From assembly GCA_013388855.1 (NCBI GenBank), contig JACAEM010000017.1, forward strand, positions 1-64,000: DNA of 64,000 nucleotides. The letters are read 5' to 3'. Numbering within the stretch: position 1 is the first letter of the stretch; each line of letters begins with the position of its first letter. The translations under genes and the position numbers were made by a program. Below the pieces are notes generated by a model that made no database searches, was not told where the DNA came from, and saw only the letters and a list, made by a program, of their open reading frames with translations. The stretch is from Chloroflexota bacterium (GTDB lineage Bacteria > Chloroflexota > Anaerolineae > Anaerolineales > Villigracilaceae). Below, in pieces: positions 955 through 8,126 of the stretch.

Positions 955-2256
955 TTATCCACAGCCGCCACCGGATTTGTCGCGCTTTAATTGAAGTTTG
1001 ATCTTGGCTTCGAACTCCAGATTTTCGTATTCGATGGGGCTGGGGTCGCAGGATTCGTACCGACTCCCTAAAGCTGCGGGGAAGATATATGCCAATTGAT
1101 CGTCAGCAGCCTTCGGGTTGGGTTGAAGCGATTCGTCATCCTTGCCGAAGAAGGCGATCCAGTTGTTGATGCCTCCCTCAAGGATGTAACTATTTGTCAA
1201 ACTGGAGGCGACCAGCTTCTTCCATGCCCTTACCGCCGCAGTCTCGTCATTGCTCATGAGGATGAAGACGGAATTGGCAGTCGGTTCGGTCAGAAGGATG
1301 GGAACAACTTCCTCGATCCGTTCCTCAGGAATGTTGATCGCGCCTTCGATGTGATACAGGTTGAAATCCGCTTCAGGGCGTACATCGATGTAGATGGGAT
1401 TCATCGCCTGATTATATTTTGCCTTGAAGGCTTCCGCGGGGGTGATGAAGACCAGGCGCTTCGAGAGCATTTCATCTGCGGAGTAGGTGTAGGTATTGAT
1501 GATCGGGTCTGCGTTCTCCTGCGGGATGGTCTCGGTGCGTGTGAAAATCACCTTTTGGTACTTTTCTTCGAGCGACGGCGTGCCGATGAAAACGACGGCG
1601 AGGGCGAAGACAAATAATACGCCTGCGCCAACCAAACGAATCTTCGGTTCGCGGCTCATATCCTTTTTGCCAATGATGCGTTCCAATTGTTCCGCACCCC
1701 AGAACATGAAGAGCGCCATCAACACAACCAGCAGGACCACAACTCCGATGGGCAGGTTGAAGACCTGGTCAAGGGTGACGCGCCCAAAATAACCAGCGTT
1801 GTTGTACCAGTTGGTAAAGTATGGTTCGGTCTCACCGAAGAGGAATGCGCCGACAAAACCGCCGAGCATGAACAACATCCCGTCAATCTTGCCGGTGGAA
1901 GCGGACGCCAGCGACGTGGTCGGACAGAAACCGCCGATGATGAAGCCGATGCCCATAATCAGCCCGCCGACTATTCCCGACCAGAGGTAGGTCGGGTTGA
2001 CCCACACCTGGCTGAAATCAAGAATGCCGAGGCTTACCGCGCCGAAGAGCAGGACCATGGCAGTCACAATGGCGGTGAACATCACCTTGAGGACGGTCAG
2101 TTCGGTAAAGTAGAACTGAGCAGCGAGTTTGCGCGAATCGCCGAAGCCGGACATTTCGAGAGTGAAGCCAAATGCAAAGCCGATGACGCCAAAGAGTACG
2201 TACGTCCATGGATTTGCAGCGCTGACAGCGATGAATTCAGGAAGAGGGAAGTTCAT
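955..2256 (-). CDS. YeeE/YedE sulfur-transport protein fused to a rhodanese-like domain with C-terminal GGGCG
   Basis: 433 aa. Residues about 15-225 form a polytopic membrane domain of the YeeE/YedE family, which imports thiosulfate or related sulfur compounds; Cys111 in the motif GGFCPTTS is the conserved family cysteine. Residues about 288-372 are rhodanese-like (YIDVRPEADF and EGGINNW motifs), but the loop that normally carries the catalytic Cys reads MSNDETAA, so that cysteine is missing. The protein ends in GGGCG (Cys432). The only other cysteine is Cys403. The start has a perfect AGGAGG. It follows the other YeeE gene by 9 nt and is the last gene of the multiheme cytochrome operon. Transporter class is firm; the sulfur carrier role of the tail is inference. 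Confidence 0.85.
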   Translation of the reverse strand: MNFPLPEFIAVSAANPWTYVLFGVIGFAFGFTLEMSGFGDSRKLAAQFYFTELTVLKVMFTAIVTAMVLLFGAVSLGILDFSQVWVNPTYLWSGIVGGLIMGIGFIIGGFCPTTSLASASTGKIDGMLFMLGGFVGAFLFGETEPYFTNWYNNAGYFGRVTLDQVFNLPIGVVVLLVVLMALFMFWGAEQLERIIGKKDMSREPKIRLVGAGVLFVFALAVVFIGTPSLEEKYQKVIFTRTETIPQENADPIINTYTYSADEMLSKRLVFITPAEAFKAKYNQAMNPIYIDVRPEADFNLYHIEGAINIPEERIEEVVPILLTEPTANSVFILMSNDETAAVRAWKKLVASSLTNSYILEGGINNWIAFFGKDDESLQPNPKAADDQLAYIFPAALGSRYESCDPSPIEYENLEFEAKIKLQLKRDKSGGGCG

Positions 2257-2265
2257 TGCATCCTC

Positions 2266-2817
2266 CTAGTTCCACAACTTGCGTACGAAATATGCCAGTC
2301 CATACGCGCCGCCGAAAATAGCGAACATGATTGCCCAGGACCCAGCGGAAAGTGTTGCTCCGCCGGAGAGGGCCTGCCCGGAGGTGCAACCACGCGCCAT
2401 GCGGGCGCCGTAGAGGAACAGCACGCCGCCGAGGAACGCCATCAACCAACGTGTGCGGTTGGAAATGTTCGGTCCCTTGGTAGTCATGATCTTGAGACGC
2501 CCATTCAACAGCCCGGAGGTGAAACCGCCGAGCAGGGCACCGAAAAAGACCGGCACGATCCAGTCATCGAGCGGATTTTTATCCCCGCCCGCCATCTTCA
2601 AGAGATATGGATTGTTGTCCACATGAGAGGGGGATATCGCGTCGACAATCAGCGCGTCGATGCGGCTGGTGGCGCCGGAGGAGCCGAGTCCGTTCCCGGT
2701 TAGAAAGAACGCCAGGAACAATACAATCCCGAGAACCACTCCGCCAAAGTAAGGATGGACGTACGGTTTTTCCGGGCGTTTGAAAATACTTTTCTTGGTT
2801 ACAGGAGCAGTGGTCAT
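2266..2817 (-). CDS. YeeE/YedE family sulfur-transport membrane protein
   Basis: 183 aa, a second YeeE/YedE-type protein with four or so hydrophobic segments (about 25-45, 85-105, 125-140, 160-175). The family motif RGCTSGQALSGGA is present with Cys144. Together with the next gene it forms the two-piece arrangement common in this family, probably a thiosulfate or sulfide-compound permease. ATG at 2817 overlaps the TGA of the upstream cytochrome gene (ATGA), and AGAAGGAG precedes it, so translation is probably coupled. In the same frame the open reading extends upstream to 3060, but that part overlaps the cytochrome gene and is not protein-like. Confidence 0.85.
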   Translation of the reverse strand: MTTAPVTKKSIFKRPEKPYVHPYFGGVVLGIVLFLAFFLTGNGLGSSGATSRIDALIVDAISPSHVDNNPYLLKMAGGDKNPLDDWIVPVFFGALLGGFTSGLLNGRLKIMTTKGPNISNRTRWLMAFLGGVLFLYGARMARGCTSGQALSGGATLSAGSWAIMFAIFGGAYGLAYFVRKLWN

Positions 2818-5579
2818 TTTGATTCTCCTTCTGCTTTTGTTTCCTCTTTGTTCGCTTCGGTATGACTGTTCGTTTCTACCTCTTCCCAGCCCGTGACCAT
2901 ACCGCGCATGGCTTCGAGCGGTGTGGCCCCGGTTGTGGTGAGGTAAACATGGGCAACGATAAACGAGGCGAAAGTCCAGGCAATGAGCGAATGGAACGGC
3001 GCCAGAACGGGCAGCCCGCCGAATAGGTTTGCGATCTGCGGCCATTTCTGCACACCCCACATCAGGATGCCGGTCAAACCCTGTAGCGGCAGGAGCACGT
3101 TCAGAATCATGAAGTATGTTGCCTGTTGCAAGGGGTTGAGCCGTTTGCCGGGCGTCTTTTCAAATGGGTGTCCATGCCCTTCGAAGATGCCTTTGGTGTA
3201 GTACAGTATCTGTTTCATGGTGTCGTCGAAGAAACCATGAGGATGAGGGATATACCGTCGGATATTTTCAGTTGCAAGGTGATAGAACAGAGCAAGTACC
3301 GCGTTGATGGCAAGGATAGCAGCCAATACGTTGTGGATGATTACCACACCGTTGAATGAAAACACCCCGAAGATATCCGGTCTGTGGATGATCAAGCCTG
3401 TAAATAATAGGATGACAATCGCAACTGTCTGCAACCAGTGCCAGAAGCGTTCATATGCCTGATACATGTAGATGCGCTCGGTTCGTTTCGGACCTCTGAC
3501 CTGCTTCCGCGACGAGATATATCTCAGTGTCCCGTGCCCGATCACGCCCAACAGCGATCCGGTGAACATCAACGCGCCGAGCCAATCGACCCAGTTGACG
3601 CGGCTGGAGCCGAAGACATACATTTTGTCGTTGGATGGAACAGGGTTGTAGTACACCGCACCATCTTTACCCTTGACGATCTCGCCTGTGGCATTGACGT
3701 TGTTGTTTGCATCGAAGACCGGCGTCACACCGTTGGGCGCGTACTCGGAGAGTTTGATGGGCTGAGACACGCGCGATAAGTCGTTGTGGCAGGCTTTGCA
3801 GTCATTGACTGCATTCTCACTGCGGGCGACATTGTGGTTGATGCTATAAGGCTGGATCAGCCCCTCCATGCGCGGATCGTTCAGTCCAAGCGAAGCGAGT
3901 CTTGTTTTGACAGCCTCCTCCTTGGCAAGCGAGTCGATTACAAGTTCATCCTTTTCCAGCAAGCCGTTCCCGTTTGCGTCGAAAACGGAGAGAAGGTCAG
4001 GGTTGTAACTGCCGTTATCGAAATAGGCAGCCTCGAGGTCCACGAGACGAACCGGGCGGTTGTTCCCATTGTTGTCTGTGTATGCCCAGTAATAGGTCGT
4101 GATCAAATTGTACGGAGCAAGCAATGTGCCTCCGCCGATATTTGTGCGGTTGAGAAGCACGGGCTCGTAACCGGTCACTAATGATGTGACTTTATTGGGT
4201 TCGCCTTCCACGCCACGGCATGTTTTGACAGGCTCGCTGTTGAGTGTGAGCACTGTCCAATCGTAGGATTGAATGGCAGGTGCGTACATTTGCGGAATAT
4301 GGCAGGTCTCACAGGCGACTGCTTCCATGTGTGTGTCGATGTAGGGCAGCCAATCGGAATGTCCCTTGCTGGCGTCGTGACAGGAGTCGCAGCGGCGCAT
4401 GGTGCCTTTGAGTTCCGGTGCGACGTTGAATTGCGCGCTTTGCCCGCGGGCGAAATTATGATCAGGCCGCTTGAGATATTCGCCGATGTCGAGAACGCGC
4501 GGATCATAGACGAGGTGCTCTGGTTCAGCTTTCTGCGCTTCGTCGGCATGAGCGGGGTTGTTCAACGCGTAGTGACAATCGGTGCATTGCAACTGGCGTT
4601 CTGCATGGATGTCCCAGGAGCGGATGAGTTCGTTTTTGCCGCTCAGGTTGACACCCGAATCGACGATCTTTTGCGGGGAGATCACTTGTCCCGTTGTAGC
4701 AGTCTGCGGATAGTTCAGATCGCAGGCGTTGATGGTCAGAGGTTCGTTCGATTCGGGATGTACTTCGCCATGGCAAGTCGCACAATTTGCGTTGGTGGGA
4801 TCCTGGATTTTTACGAACTCGGCTTTGAGTTCACCGTTTTCGTCAAAGGCTTCGGTGGAATACGCATAACCGTTTTGCCCGAGGCTGGACCGGTCGACGA
4901 TTCCCGTGCCAACCAATGTAGCCATGTTGGCGAAAGCAAAGTCGCCTTTTTCGAGGGCGCTTACACGCGCTTCGTTGTTCGGGTTTTCGAAGTGGCACAG
5001 GAAGCAGTTCATTTCCATTGTGCCGGATTGGGCCCAATCCCAGGGTTCCGCCACGCCGTTTTCGTTCAGGATGCTGGCTTCGGGATTGTTTGCATCTGCG
5101 TTGAGACTGGTAAGCGGCTCGCCCTCGCGGGATGTGGTGGCGGGTCCACCTCCGACGACGCGGTACCCGTATTTTTGAAGCCATTCCGCTGTGGAGAGAT
5201 CAAGTCGTTCATCACCGTTTTGTGAGAGGTAACGGTAGGTGAGTGGGTCCCATTTGCCGAAGGTACCGGTGCTGGCGTTAAATTGACTGGTTGCCTTGTA
5301 GTCGCTGAGTCCAAGATCGGAGTGGAACGCGTGTTGTTGGATGAATTCCGTGTCGTGGCATTGTCCGCAGGTTTTCATGGTCGAGACCGGGTTTCCGGTA
5401 TCGAGCACGTTATCGCCCTTTGCATCGAGCAGGGCAAACGTCGGATGCAGGGACGAAGGTTGTAGAGCGGGAGCAGGTTCAGGCTTGGCAAGAGCCGTCT
5501 GAATTCCGAATGCAACGAGCGCCAGGGACATTCCGATTACAATGAGCAGGTTTCGAGTCAATGTTTTCATGTTATTCAT
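2814..5579 (-). CDS. Heptaheme cytochrome c fused to a membrane cytochrome b domain
   Basis: 921 aa. A signal sequence (about 8-31) precedes an extracytoplasmic region with seven CxxCH haem sites (Cys71, 192, 266, 332, 397, 423, 594). A canonical EF-hand calcium loop (Asp534-Glu545, DANGNGLLEKDE) lies between haem sites six and seven. From about 660 onward there is a di-haem cytochrome b-type domain with several membrane helices and histidines in RFWHWLQ, IIHNVLA, LFYHLA, PFHSLIA and IVAHVYL. The likely role is quinol oxidation at the membrane with transfer to the octaheme partner encoded upstream. Start and stop overlap both neighbours by ATGA. The b-c fusion and electron route are inferred from domains; the terminal acceptor is uncertain. 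Confidence 0.85.
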   Translation of the reverse strand: MNNMKTLTRNLLIVIGMSLALVAFGIQTALAKPEPAPALQPSSLHPTFALLDAKGDNVLDTGNPVSTMKTCGQCHDTEFIQQHAFHSDLGLSDYKATSQFNASTGTFGKWDPLTYRYLSQNGDERLDLSTAEWLQKYGYRVVGGGPATTSREGEPLTSLNADANNPEASILNENGVAEPWDWAQSGTMEMNCFLCHFENPNNEARVSALEKGDFAFANMATLVGTGIVDRSSLGQNGYAYSTEAFDENGELKAEFVKIQDPTNANCATCHGEVHPESNEPLTINACDLNYPQTATTGQVISPQKIVDSGVNLSGKNELIRSWDIHAERQLQCTDCHYALNNPAHADEAQKAEPEHLVYDPRVLDIGEYLKRPDHNFARGQSAQFNVAPELKGTMRRCDSCHDASKGHSDWLPYIDTHMEAVACETCHIPQMYAPAIQSYDWTVLTLNSEPVKTCRGVEGEPNKVTSLVTGYEPVLLNRTNIGGGTLLAPYNLITTYYWAYTDNNGNNRPVRLVDLEAAYFDNGSYNPDLLSVFDANGNGLLEKDELVIDSLAKEEAVKTRLASLGLNDPRMEGLIQPYSINHNVARSENAVNDCKACHNDLSRVSQPIKLSEYAPNGVTPVFDANNNVNATGEIVKGKDGAVYYNPVPSNDKMYVFGSSRVNWVDWLGALMFTGSLLGVIGHGTLRYISSRKQVRGPKRTERIYMYQAYERFWHWLQTVAIVILLFTGLIIHRPDIFGVFSFNGVVIIHNVLAAILAINAVLALFYHLATENIRRYIPHPHGFFDDTMKQILYYTKGIFEGHGHPFEKTPGKRLNPLQQATYFMILNVLLPLQGLTGILMWGVQKWPQIANLFGGLPVLAPFHSLIAWTFASFIVAHVYLTTTGATPLEAMRGMVTGWEEVETNSHTEANKEETKAEGESK

Positions 5580-7018
5580 TTTCCCCTTCCACCCCATTCG
5601 ATGGGATCGCCGGGGTATCCAAGTTCTTCCCAATTCATGCGCCCGTTTTCCCCGTGGCAGGATTCGCATTGCAGTGCGCTCTCGGCAGGTTGTACCATAT
5701 GCGTGGTTGGCCAGTACATATAAGTTTCTGTAAAGCCATATTCACCGCTATATTCCAGCCCTGTAATGGGAGCGGCGAGTTCAAAGGCGCTATTCCAATC
5801 GAAAGTTGTCCAGAAACCATCTTTGCCGGAGGTGATGGGCTGAAGCAGGTAGTTATTGACCACGTCATACGGTTGTTTAGCGATGTGGAGTTTGAAGGGG
5901 AAGATCTTGGCATTCAGGTCGTTGATGGTACCGGCGGGTTTGTTGATGTAGGTGACGCCGTTGGGGTCGATCTTGTCCCCGAGGATGTAGCGATATTCAT
6001 TGTTTCCGTTGAACCAAAGATAGGTGGGGGCGAAGTTTTTGTCGTAGACGAACTCGCCCTTGATCTTGAGGTAGGTGAAGTGGTCGTCTTCGCGTCCTTC
6101 CTGACCTGCCTGCGACCAGTCCCAGTAGATTTTGGTGGGGTCTTCAGTGGCTAATGCAGGGATGTGACAGGTTTGGCAGGCGACGGCGGAAAGGTGCGTG
6201 TTGATCCGCTCGTCTTCATGTTTCTGATTAACGTGGCATTGCTCGCAGGAGACCTGTTCCTTCGGATCGATAGTGTAATTATCTGCCACCATGCGTCCGA
6301 GGATTTGGTGATCGGTTGTCCAGTGGCAGTCGATACACTGCATGTTCAGTTCGCCGCCCATGTGCACATCGTTATTCTCGGAGGGGAAGTAGAGGCTTTC
6401 GTCGAGGTCGCCGTGTTTGACACCGTTGCCGCCGCCGCCGTCGAAGTGGCATTTACCGCAGTTCTCGCGCGTCGGTGTGCGGACGGATTTCGCTGCGGCG
6501 AGCAGGTCAACTCCCTCGGCGGGGTTGCCATAGGTGCCTTTGCCGTAGATGCCCGTATCGGCGTGGCAGGCGAGGCAGTCCACGTTTTCGGGGTTGGCGA
6601 GGGCGGCTTCGCGTCCCTGCTCCCAGCCGTAACCGGCATGACAGGACATGCACTTATTTTCGTTGCCCTGAGTGCCGATGCAAAAGTTATTGATCTGATT
6701 GATCTTGCCGATGGTTACATCATCTTCCCGCCACGGAACGTCGAAGGCTTTTGATTCCCACGTCCAGTGGGTGGTTGCCATGACCTGTGTTGCCGAGTCT
6801 TCATGGCATTCCAGGCAGGCGCGGGTCACGTCCTGCCCGGTTTTGAAATCGCCTTTGACGATGTCTGAGTGGTCAACGTGGACAAGCTTGGTGGGCAGAT
6901 AATCTTCCGGATTGGTGGAAGGCTTATCGGCGCGAGGCAGGAAGTAGAGGATGGGGACCAGGATCACCAAAATGATGCCGAGCAGTCCCAGGGTCCAGAA
7001 AGGGAAGCGTTTCTTCAT
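5576..7018 (-). CDS. Octaheme c-type cytochrome, tetrathionate reductase family (OTR-like)
   Basis: 480 aa, with one N-terminal membrane anchor or signal (about 8-27) and eight CxxCH sites (Cys68, 123, 148, 187, 228, 258, 281, 451). The stretches VDHSDIVKGDF and SCHAGYGW are typical of the octaheme tetrathionate reductase family, whose Shewanella member reduces tetrathionate, nitrite and hydroxylamine in vitro. It is probably the catalytic periplasmic or exocytoplasmic subunit, fed by the cytochrome b/c protein encoded immediately downstream. The ATG at 7018 has AGGAG before it; an upstream in-frame extension to 7312 overlaps the ArsR gene and is rejected. Neighbouring sulfur transporters favour a sulfur oxyanion as substrate, but this is inference. 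Confidence 0.88.
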   Translation of the reverse strand: MKKRFPFWTLGLLGIILVILVPILYFLPRADKPSTNPEDYLPTKLVHVDHSDIVKGDFKTGQDVTRACLECHEDSATQVMATTHWTWESKAFDVPWREDDVTIGKINQINNFCIGTQGNENKCMSCHAGYGWEQGREAALANPENVDCLACHADTGIYGKGTYGNPAEGVDLLAAAKSVRTPTRENCGKCHFDGGGGNGVKHGDLDESLYFPSENNDVHMGGELNMQCIDCHWTTDHQILGRMVADNYTIDPKEQVSCEQCHVNQKHEDERINTHLSAVACQTCHIPALATEDPTKIYWDWSQAGQEGREDDHFTYLKIKGEFVYDKNFAPTYLWFNGNNEYRYILGDKIDPNGVTYINKPAGTINDLNAKIFPFKLHIAKQPYDVVNNYLLQPITSGKDGFWTTFDWNSAFELAAPITGLEYSGEYGFTETYMYWPTTHMVQPAESALQCESCHGENGRMNWEELGYPGDPIEWGGRGK

Positions 7019-7026
7019 ACATTCTC

Positions 7027-7362
7027 CTATGAAAGGTCGTTGACAAGGCTCGCGCGCTGGGTTAGTCTGTCGCGCATTGCCGCGCGGAGCAGGTCCAATG
7101 CCTGAATAACGCGGGTGTCCGACAGGTGGTACGTAATGACCGTCCCCTGGCGCTCGGTGTATACGAGCCCGCGCTCGCGCAGAACCTTGAGATGCCTTGA
7201 CGTAGTGGGTTGAGGAATGCCCAATTCGTTGGTAAGTTCGGTGACATTGAGCGAGCGCTCGTTCAATGCGTACAAAATAAAGATGCGAGTTGGGTCTGAG
7301 AGTGCCGCGCAAAAATCCGCTTCGAGTTGGATAATTTCCTGCTTTAGGGTCTGATTTACCAT
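7027..7362 (-). CDS. ArsR/SmtB-family transcriptional regulator of the sulfur/multiheme operon
   Basis: 111 aa winged-helix repressor; the recognition helix region is GIPQPTTSRHLKVLRERGLV (about 48-67). It has a single cysteine, Cys18 in FCAALSDPTR, and no metal-binding CxC motif. It is the first gene of the minus-strand operon and ends 9 nt before the octaheme cytochrome start. A perfect inverted repeat with the geometry ATTC-N8-GAAT lies 12 nt upstream of its ATG; this is the site type described for the persulfide sensors SqrR and BigR. Those sensors use two cysteines, so either sensing here differs or the effector is not persulfide. AGGAG supports the start. Confidence 0.88.
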   Translation of the reverse strand: MVNQTLKQEIIQLEADFCAALSDPTRIFILYALNERSLNVTELTNELGIPQPTTSRHLKVLRERGLVYTERQGTVITYHLSDTRVIQALDLLRAAMRDRLTQRASLVNDLS

Positions 7363-7514: not shown

Positions 7515-8126
7515 ATGGCTCTCTATCAAAACGATGCGATCTCTATAAACGTAGGAGAACGACTGCGAGAACTTCGCACCATGAATGATTTATCATTGCG
7601 CGCTTTGGCGATAAAAAGCGGGCTTTCGATTCATACACTTTCCATGATCGAAAAAGGAAAGGTGTCACCTTCTGTCAGCGCCCTGTATAAATTGGCAGAA
7701 GCGATGGATGTTTCCATTACATACTTCTTCAGCCCTCACAGTAAGCGGAGGCAGGTGATTTTCCTAAAATCAGACGCACGGACTCACATGCCATTTACAC
7801 GCGGGATATTTGAAGGGCTTGGTGGAGAAAATTTTGCGGGCAATATAGAACCGTTCCTGCTTACCTTGGAAAGCAGCGCCAATAGCGGTCCCCAGGTGAT
7901 GACTCATGCCGGAGAAGAATTCGTCTTTTGCCTGCGCGGTCAATTGGAGTATCAGGTGGATCACCAGATCTATGAACTTTCCGCTGGCGACAGTCTGTTA
8001 TTCGCAGCGCACCTGAAACATCGTTGGAAGAATCCGGGAAAGACGGTGGCGACTGCATTGATTATTGTCTCAGGCGTCATCGATCGCGATGCGTTGCAGG
8101 AAATACATTGGAGGGCGGGAGAATAG
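7515..8126 (+). CDS. XRE-family transcriptional regulator with C-terminal cupin
   Basis: 203 aa. An N-terminal helix-turn-helix (about 13-65: LRELRTMNDLSLRALA, GLSIHTLSMIEKG) is followed by a cupin barrel (about 105-190, with HAGEEFVFCLRG and LKHRWKNPG). This two-domain layout belongs to the XRE-cupin group that responds to small metabolites. It is divergent from the ArsR-led operon, with 152 bp between them that hold both candidate operators, so it may act on the same promoter region. A weak AGGAAAG precedes the start. The effector is unknown. Confidence 0.88.
   Translation: MALYQNDAISINVGERLRELRTMNDLSLRALAIKSGLSIHTLSMIEKGKVSPSVSALYKLAEAMDVSITYFFSPHSKRRQVIFLKSDARTHMPFTRGIFEGLGGENFAGNIEPFLLTLESSANSGPQVMTHAGEEFVFCLRGQLEYQVDHQIYELSAGDSLLFAAHLKHRWKNPGKTVATALIIVSGVIDRDALQEIHWRAGE

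Follow-up and report, generated by a model that had tools for sequence, protein, structure and literature searches.

A PmpB-type channel half joined to a rhodanese-like domain and a terminal cysteine arm: a candidate extracytoplasmic sulfur hand-over in a Chloroflexota bacterium

The window, that is, the whole stretch of 64,000 nucleotides that was analysed, encodes a 433-residue protein that joins a PmpB-type channel half, a rhodanese-like domain without a cysteine in its loop and a cysteine-bearing C-terminal arm. The reading favoured here, with moderate confidence, is that the arm lies outside the cytoplasm and, by its cysteine or selenocysteine, shuttles sulfane sulfur between the channel and a reductase on the outer face. 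The support is drawn from sequence comparisons: conservation of two cysteines (C111 and C432), their replacement by UGA codons in relatives, linkage to reductase genes in both operon settings, and a topology derived from charge and alignment. Sulfur import to the cytoplasm of sulfur oxidizers has been called poorly understood (PMC11582611; papers are cited here by PMC number, from excerpts of their text). Since carrier arm, dock and channel half would be present in one polypeptide whose residues at two key positions are naturally swapped in relatives, the hand-over is directly testable.

Table 1. Positions in the window of the protein, its parts and the neighbouring genes.
Feature	Position	Strand	Match
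433-aa protein: PmpB-type channel half, extracytoplasmic (by predicted topology) rhodanese-like domain and cysteine arm	955..2256	-	
Membrane part, residues 1-228, with six hydrophobic segments; both termini outside by charge; covers the N-terminal half of the Sulf_transp profile	1573..2256	-	
Codon TGT of Cys111, the pore cysteine in GGFCPTTS; six relatives have UGA	1924..1926	-	
Rhodanese-like domain, residues 251-371 (pLDDT mainly 84-95 by block, with one block at 73)	1144..1506	-	
Former catalytic loop, residues 334-339, MSNDET; without Cys, E338 kept in 110/110 rows	1240..1257	-	
Conserved linker FPAALGxRY...P, residues 381-420, pLDDT blocks 88-90	997..1116	-	
Cysteine arm LQLKRDKSGGGCG, residues 421-433, probably flexible; pLDDT <50 at 428-433	958..996	-	
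Cys432 codon, TGT; UGA in five relatives	961..963	-	
Partner half of PmpA type, matching the C-terminal half of Sulf_transp (profile 156-309), with its cysteine in RGCTSGQ; start inferred	2266..2817	-	
Multihaem c-type cytochrome fused to a cytochrome b561 domain; start inferred	2814..5579	-	
Octahaem cytochrome, tetrathionate reductase family; start inferred	5576..7018	-	TIGR04315, PDB 1sp3
ArsR-type regulator, upstream gene, recurs in many relatives	7027..7362	-	

The open reading frame (955-2256, minus strand) runs from an ATG to a TAA, and its product ends in RDKSGGGCG, so the GGGCG terminus named in the original prediction is borne out. Pfam assigns residues 45-198 to Sulf_transp (E 3.5e-15) and residues 286-368 to Rhodanese (E 1.2e-10). 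The protein belongs to the YeeE/PmpAB channel family and has a rhodanese fold; with the adjoining PmpA it resembles a split channel of the YeeE type, on the pattern of PmpB and PmpA. The curated cut-off of Sulf_transp (PF04143) is 27 bits, and the split channel halves exceed it with 56.8 and 78.2 bits. The modelled rhodanese domain matched that fold with a VIA Z of up to 13.8 over 103 residues at 1.8 Å. A Foldseek search of the PDB gave nothing at E <=0.001; its best rows were rhodaneses, and the channel part was unmatched there. The rhodanese loop reads ILMSNDETAA, with Met334 at the placed position of the catalytic Cys. As had been predicted, this loop lacks the cysteine: none of the 110 aligned rows (the window is present twice) has Cys at residues 330-340, and the loop is otherwise well kept (N336 in 109/110 rows). 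Judged from the missing loop Cys, the protein is not an active rhodanese.

AlphaFold models the rhodanese domain confidently, and over the last 13 residues the pLDDT falls to 57 and then to 35. This suggests that the protein terminates in a short arm that is probably flexible, in keeping with the earlier proposal of a flexible terminal Cys on the rhodanese dock of a sulfur channel, the Cys itself being either kept or replaced by UGA among relatives. In the window protein, cysteine is used at both positions. A further cysteine, residue 403 of an SCDP motif in the packed linker (window 1048-1050), occurs in only 50 of the 110 rows; where present, it could pair with Cys432. The protein has no match in PHROGs at E 0.001, and seven pattern matches in a viral collection included no relative.

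The conservation of the tail was followed in two sets of loci that overlap partly in genomes. For one, 61 related genomes were searched, of which 38 matched, and 30 loci were returned, the window's own included; 29 of these end in GGCG or GGCGG, and the remaining one (L026) is cut by the contig. The other consists of the best 80 of at least 580 relatives among at least 593 matched stretches of the genome_contigs collection. A GGCG(G) ending was found in 77 of the 80; L079 and L100 are cut by the contig, and L127 has UGA at the Cys codon. It had been proposed that conservation in orthologues be checked, and that an unconserved tail or a sequence error at the 3' end would refute the idea; the tail kept in these relatives excludes both.

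C111 and C432 are the sole invariant cysteines in a 24-row and a 58-row alignment (UGA rows excluded), in which identity to the window goes down to 39% and 50%, respectively, and the pore Cys stands throughout in a GGFCP or GGYCP context. The 24-row alignment (A1) was made from 34 full-length sequences, with cut, duplicate, paralogous and UGA loci excluded beforehand. The 58-row alignment (A2) holds the window and 57 of 74 sequences kept out of 76, after prior exclusion of L079, L099 and L100 (cut) and of L127 (UGA). The conservation claim for C111 and C432 rests on these two alignments and the two sets of loci; in the 109-row and 110-row sets, selected by a pattern that requires the pore and tail motifs, the counts at both positions hold by construction. 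One counter-case is an orphan tail fragment (G059, L031) that ends in GPSG-UGA and is without Cys. Orphan tail-coding copies were seen at L032 (8700-8774), L031 (4222-4365) and L175, and have the appearance of remnants or rearrangements; one sits 1.3 kb behind an intact gene and two are in genomes without a matched intact gene.

Among the matches listed, the named relatives' records are mostly Anaerolineae or Chloroflexi, and the others are Thiobacillus, Gallionellaceae, Gammaproteobacteria, Rubrivivax, Rhodoferax, Burkholderiales and candidate division KSB1. The whole protein was found in the genome of the Gallionellaceae record and in only one other among 300 genomes of its order, with a fragment in a third. 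In a sample of 396 genomes from the window's class, 69 had a match to this last gene of the operon at E 1e-139 or better, at least two of the matches being partial.

At both cysteine positions, the codons observed were TGC, TGT and TGA only, in a tally whose patterns fix the neighbouring residues and leave the Cys codon itself free. In five genomes the tail reads GGG-UGA-Gly-stop, and in six loci (L033, L162, L163, L164, L238 and L239) the pore codon is UGA in a GGF/Y-UGA-PGTS context; three genomes have UGA at both. A plain loss of the cysteine was considered and rejected: a plain stop would leave nothing to maintain a Gly and then a stop behind the UGA, which were found in all five cases, and a hairpin is placed alike behind each. 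This hairpin has 7 bp and a 3-nt loop that starts with G, the loop beginning 19-20 nt past the UGA in 5/5. Only two of 110 Cys orthologues pass the like test. With other spacings or loops allowed, any stem of at least 7 bp was found behind the Cys codon in 15 of the 110, and these long stems are probably terminators. For the pore codon, four loci of the window's phylum have a 6-bp hairpin at a similar distance, and 5 of 112 Cys orthologues pass. Two further pore-UGA loci, which belong to the same phylum as the KSB1 record (L134), show a 6-bp hairpin in the same place with the loop AGUU, which would fail the loop-starts-with-G test applied to the controls. In the hairpin tests, each set of identical flanks was counted once, and the duplicates L127 and L032 were left out.

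The mean folding energy behind the codon was -16.8 kcal/mol in the five UGA rows and -7.1 kcal/mol in the 110 Cys rows, some of which fold as strongly as the UGA rows (down to -24.8 kcal/mol). Covariation in the tail hairpin is modest: two of the seven pairs are changed on both sides among four distinct rows, a score reached by 26 of 500 shuffles. In a quick tree of 109 rows, from which the two KSB1-phylum pore-UGA loci are absent, the tail UGA appears as one change (one clade) and the pore UGA as two. It offers no informative independent pair, and joint replacement at pore and tail, not supported as independent events, was set aside as evidence of contact between the two.

Of the six UGA genomes in the window's phylum, four (G587, G655, G729 and G043) have SelB above the cut-off and two (G549 and G618) have fragments of it; tRNA-Sec scored at least 65 bits in G587, G655, G729 and G618 and was weak in G043 (53 bits) and G549 (47 bits). 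G1150 has SelB, and in G1149, which has a pore UGA, none was found at E 1e-60. Among 21 genomes whose match has no UGA, 19 also have SelB above the cut-off, and most such genomes have tRNA-Sec as well as SelB, the window's own included in both respects; the selenocysteine machinery is therefore permissive rather than diagnostic.

Taken together, UGA at the codons of C111 and C432 in these relatives is probably selenocysteine. Selenocysteine is regarded as arising in evolution from redox-active cysteines (PMC1794560, in part); together with the probable swaps at both positions, this makes it very likely that C111 and C432 are reactive. The Cys of PmpA stays Cys in the six loci read. A YeeE/YedE selenoprotein (PF04143) is described in PMC13188914, likewise with selenocysteine in a Sulf_transp protein; its motif, GUxSG, as given in the excerpt, fits the PmpA-type Cys, whereas the UGA found here lies at GGF/Y-U-PGTS and in the arm. 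If the selenocysteine reading holds, two positions would be added to selenocysteine use in this transporter family, one of them, seen in the six pore-UGA loci, a candidate within the membrane pore of a PmpB-type channel half. The selenoprotein table of the same paper, as far as seen, also includes a TIGR04315 octahaem cytochrome, annotated as a selenoprotein in GenBank.

The orientation of the membrane part was deduced from the mean number of Lys and Arg per loop in the 58 rows: loops 1, 3 and 5 have 3.3, 1.1 and 5.7, and the N-terminus and loops 2 and 4 have 0.2, 0.0 and 1.0. Loops 3 and 4 are near-equal in charge (1.1 and 1.0), and the charge rule thus depends on loops 1, 2 and 5 and the N-terminus. 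This pattern indicates N-out and C-out. The membrane-part profile aligns with TsuA (6leo, E 0.0006), with Cys111 on the Cys of the GGCAS motif, which we take to be Cys91. R28 and R98 of TsuA, which lie at the cytoplasmic surface (PMC11073785, in part), align within loops that the charge rule assigns to the inside. Standalone relatives of the rhodanese domain have, by eye, a basic stretch and one hydrophobic segment at the N-terminus, as in a C-out signal anchor, and a basic tail that ends in -GC in 13/13 rows; the split locus L243 gave no row and is outside the 13, and L228 and L229, both among them, are nearly identical. Because of the charge counts, the TsuA alignment and these anchored relatives, the rhodanese and the arm are apparently outside the cytoplasmic membrane, at the channel entrance. 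This is at odds with the original prediction on one point: the arm had been put at the pore exit, receiving the imported atom, and this exit-side acceptor model was rejected on topology.

Across the best 80 of at least 580 loci, the gene order is octahaem cytochrome, multihaem cytochrome/b561, PmpA and rhodanese-fused PmpB. PmpA adjoins the gene in 79 of the 80, and the octahaem and multihaem genes lie upstream in all 67 loci with at least 4 kb of upstream sequence. The window's PmpA has its Cys in RGCTSG, as do six further loci; PmpA predicted alone without an alignment had a pLDDT of 52.6, and this model was set aside. The octahaem neighbour scores 554 bits with TIGR04315 (cut-off 375) and matches PDB 1sp3 at E 6e-129. 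Going by the title of a paper, the octahaem enzyme reportedly can reduce nitrite and hydroxylamine too, so the substrate of the operon need not be sulfur.

Relatives in the phylum to which the KSB1 record belongs also encode the rhodanese on its own, in a gene immediately behind pmpB whose product ends in -GC. In these split operons, the genes for PmpA, PmpB and the rhodanese are preceded by one for an NrfD-type protein (scanned in four loci) and one for an Fe-S protein (scanned in two), and a psrA-type molybdopterin enzyme lies further upstream in all four operons that were followed. The order psrA-psrB-psrC-type and then pmpA-pmpB-rhodanese(-GC) was read in L231, L232, L236 and L237 with L244-L247. 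Thiosulfate reductase PhsA is the best NCBIfam match of all four psrA-type genes, at 458-484 bits, below the cut-off of 694. The L244 psrA-type protein matches PDB 2vpw, listed as a thiosulfate reductase and presumably the Thermus polysulfide reductase, at E 4.4e-212. Such clusters would link a polysulfide/thiosulfate-type reductase to the sulfur channel. About 2 kb before the psrA-type gene, L245 also carries a type III sulfide:quinone reductase of the selenoprotein subtype (2068-3297; NF049943, 682 bits). The fused and split forms coexist in G1119 and G1150. As two different exofacial reductases share the channel with its arm, the channel would be the arm's constant partner.

In the favoured reading, in which the arm hands sulfane sulfur over, the rhodanese domain outside the membrane would have lost its loop Cys and would act as a dock, and the nucleophile would have been relocated to Cys432 at the tip of the Lys/Arg- and Gly-rich arm. 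The arm would collect sulfane sulfur at an exofacial sulfur reductase, which would be the octahaem cytochrome with its cytochrome b here and the PsrABC-type complex in the split relatives. It would then give the sulfur to the channel mouth, from where the PmpA Cys and then Cys111 would relay it inward. Along this path, the selenocysteine reading of UGA, the action of Cys432 as a carrier of sulfur (as persulfide or S-sulfonate) rather than merely as a reductant, and the order of the partners are what we infer. So is the inward direction, which is suggested because the PmpAB homologues YedE1E2 import and do not export zero-valent sulfur, both of their Cys being required (PMC10812762, in part). 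In lucinid symbionts, otr has a divergent SoxY as its neighbour (PMC11237559, excerpt), which by analogy would be an independent case of a swinging arm alongside an octahaem cytochrome. More tentatively, and at less than even odds in our judgement, the system may be a chalcogen relay of a new class, in which a C-terminal swinging arm on the channel's outer face has taken over the nucleophile from the rhodanese loop, the Cys or Sec of the arm serves that of the pore directly, and an exofacial respiratory sulfur reductase is coupled to import in one membrane complex.

The adjoining haem or molybdopterin reductases would suit another role for the arm, that of a redox resolver: Cys432 or Sec432 would attack tetrathionate, thiosulfate or polysulfide at the S-S bond, or resolve a persulfide on the channel Cys, with electrons from the haem chain, and no sulfur would ride on the arm across any distance. 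The view that selenocysteine evolves from redox-active cysteines (PMC1794560, in part) agrees with this as well. However, the soluble part has one invariant Cys and therefore no kept resolving partner (C403 is present in 50/110 rows), and the constant partner in both operon types is the channel rather than a reductase, which makes this role rather unlikely. A second alternative is suggested by the rhodanese behind the psrABC-type genes in the split form. Sud feeds Psr, the polysulfide reductase, and PDB 1qxn, which we take to be Sud of Wolinella, is a weak profile match (E 0.0087). The arm might likewise supply sulfane sulfur to the exofacial reductase, with the channel bringing sulfur or disposing of sulfide and the flow directed outward or laterally. 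This is improbable: leaving orphan tail fragments out of account, the loci read have the rhodanese either joined to PmpB or immediately after it, and the homologous PmpAB is described as importing, not exporting, zero-valent sulfur (PMC10812762, in part).

The UGA variants might also point to selenium, or tellurium, as the chalcogen, with extracytoplasmic selenite or selenide handled by arm and channel, and YedE relatives, weakly matched here, are tied to selenium metabolism (PMC9312934, excerpt). Most members have Cys, however, and the reductase of the split operons is of the polysulfide/thiosulfate type, joined in one locus by a sulfide:quinone reductase, so there is little to recommend this. 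Terminal cysteines can have structural or assembly roles (disulfide, lipidation or metal ligand) without chalcogen chemistry, which hardly merits consideration here, given that UGA and a like-placed hairpin occur at precisely the Cys432 codon, and likewise at the pore Cys.

The original prediction had likened the tail to the terminal GGCGG swinging arm of SoxY. What stands of this is a similarity in working: a Gly-rich, apparently extracytoplasmic C-terminal arm with a Cys in its terminal region is present, a resemblance rather than membership. Homology to SoxY was rejected. Pfam, which presumably contains a SoxY model, gives at E 0.001 only Sulf_transp and Rhodanese for the whole protein, and the tail alone matched no model of Pfam or NCBIfam at E 10. 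SoxY of SoxYZ shares the principle of a sulfur-binding Cys on a swinging arm (PMC11237559, in part); the protein here differs by its rhodanese fold, its tether to a channel, the lack of a sequence match and its UGA variants. As to Sud, the periplasmic rhodanese of Wolinella (presumably PDB 1qxn), it likewise has a rhodanese fold, and it works with polysulfide reductase. Sud is soluble and carries sulfur on its loop Cys, whereas the loop here is without Cys, the nucleophile would be on the tail and the protein is tethered; the psrABC-type linkage is seen in the split relatives and is absent from the window's operon. The best reading by analogy is that the arm would work like SoxY or Sud and belong to neither.

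The known PmpA and PmpB (YedE1E2) are also encoded by side-by-side half-channel genes of the Sulf_transp family with one conserved Cys each, and are of about 130 aa with four predicted transmembrane segments; no extracytoplasmic domain is described for them in the excerpts of PMC11582611 and PMC10812762. In contrast, the PmpB described here carries additional transmembrane segments as well as the rhodanese domain and the arm with its Cys or Sec. TsuA-TsuB (YeeE-YeeD) shares the Cys relay through the membrane and a sulfur-handling partner that is sometimes fused to the channel. However, TsuB is TusA-like, acts at the cytoplasmic exit side and has a CPxP Cys (PMC11073785, in part), whereas here a rhodanese fold lies at the outer side with a C-terminal Cys. 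No description of a YeeE/Pmp-rhodanese fusion with a cysteine tail was found in the literature searched, which was seen in part and from which subscription journals were mostly absent. The hand-over reading would provide a lead to the function of an operon found in those 69 of the 396 sampled genomes of the window's class.

Two further observations concern the surroundings of the gene. The window's genome has a second PmpA-PmpB-like pair on contig C10 (17949-19043, L034), whose matched frames of 182-252 aa are of insufficient length for a channel half, a rhodanese and an arm. A divergent XRE-cupin regulator (window 7515-8126) adjoins the ArsR-type regulator and is seen beside the operon in many of the 80 loci.
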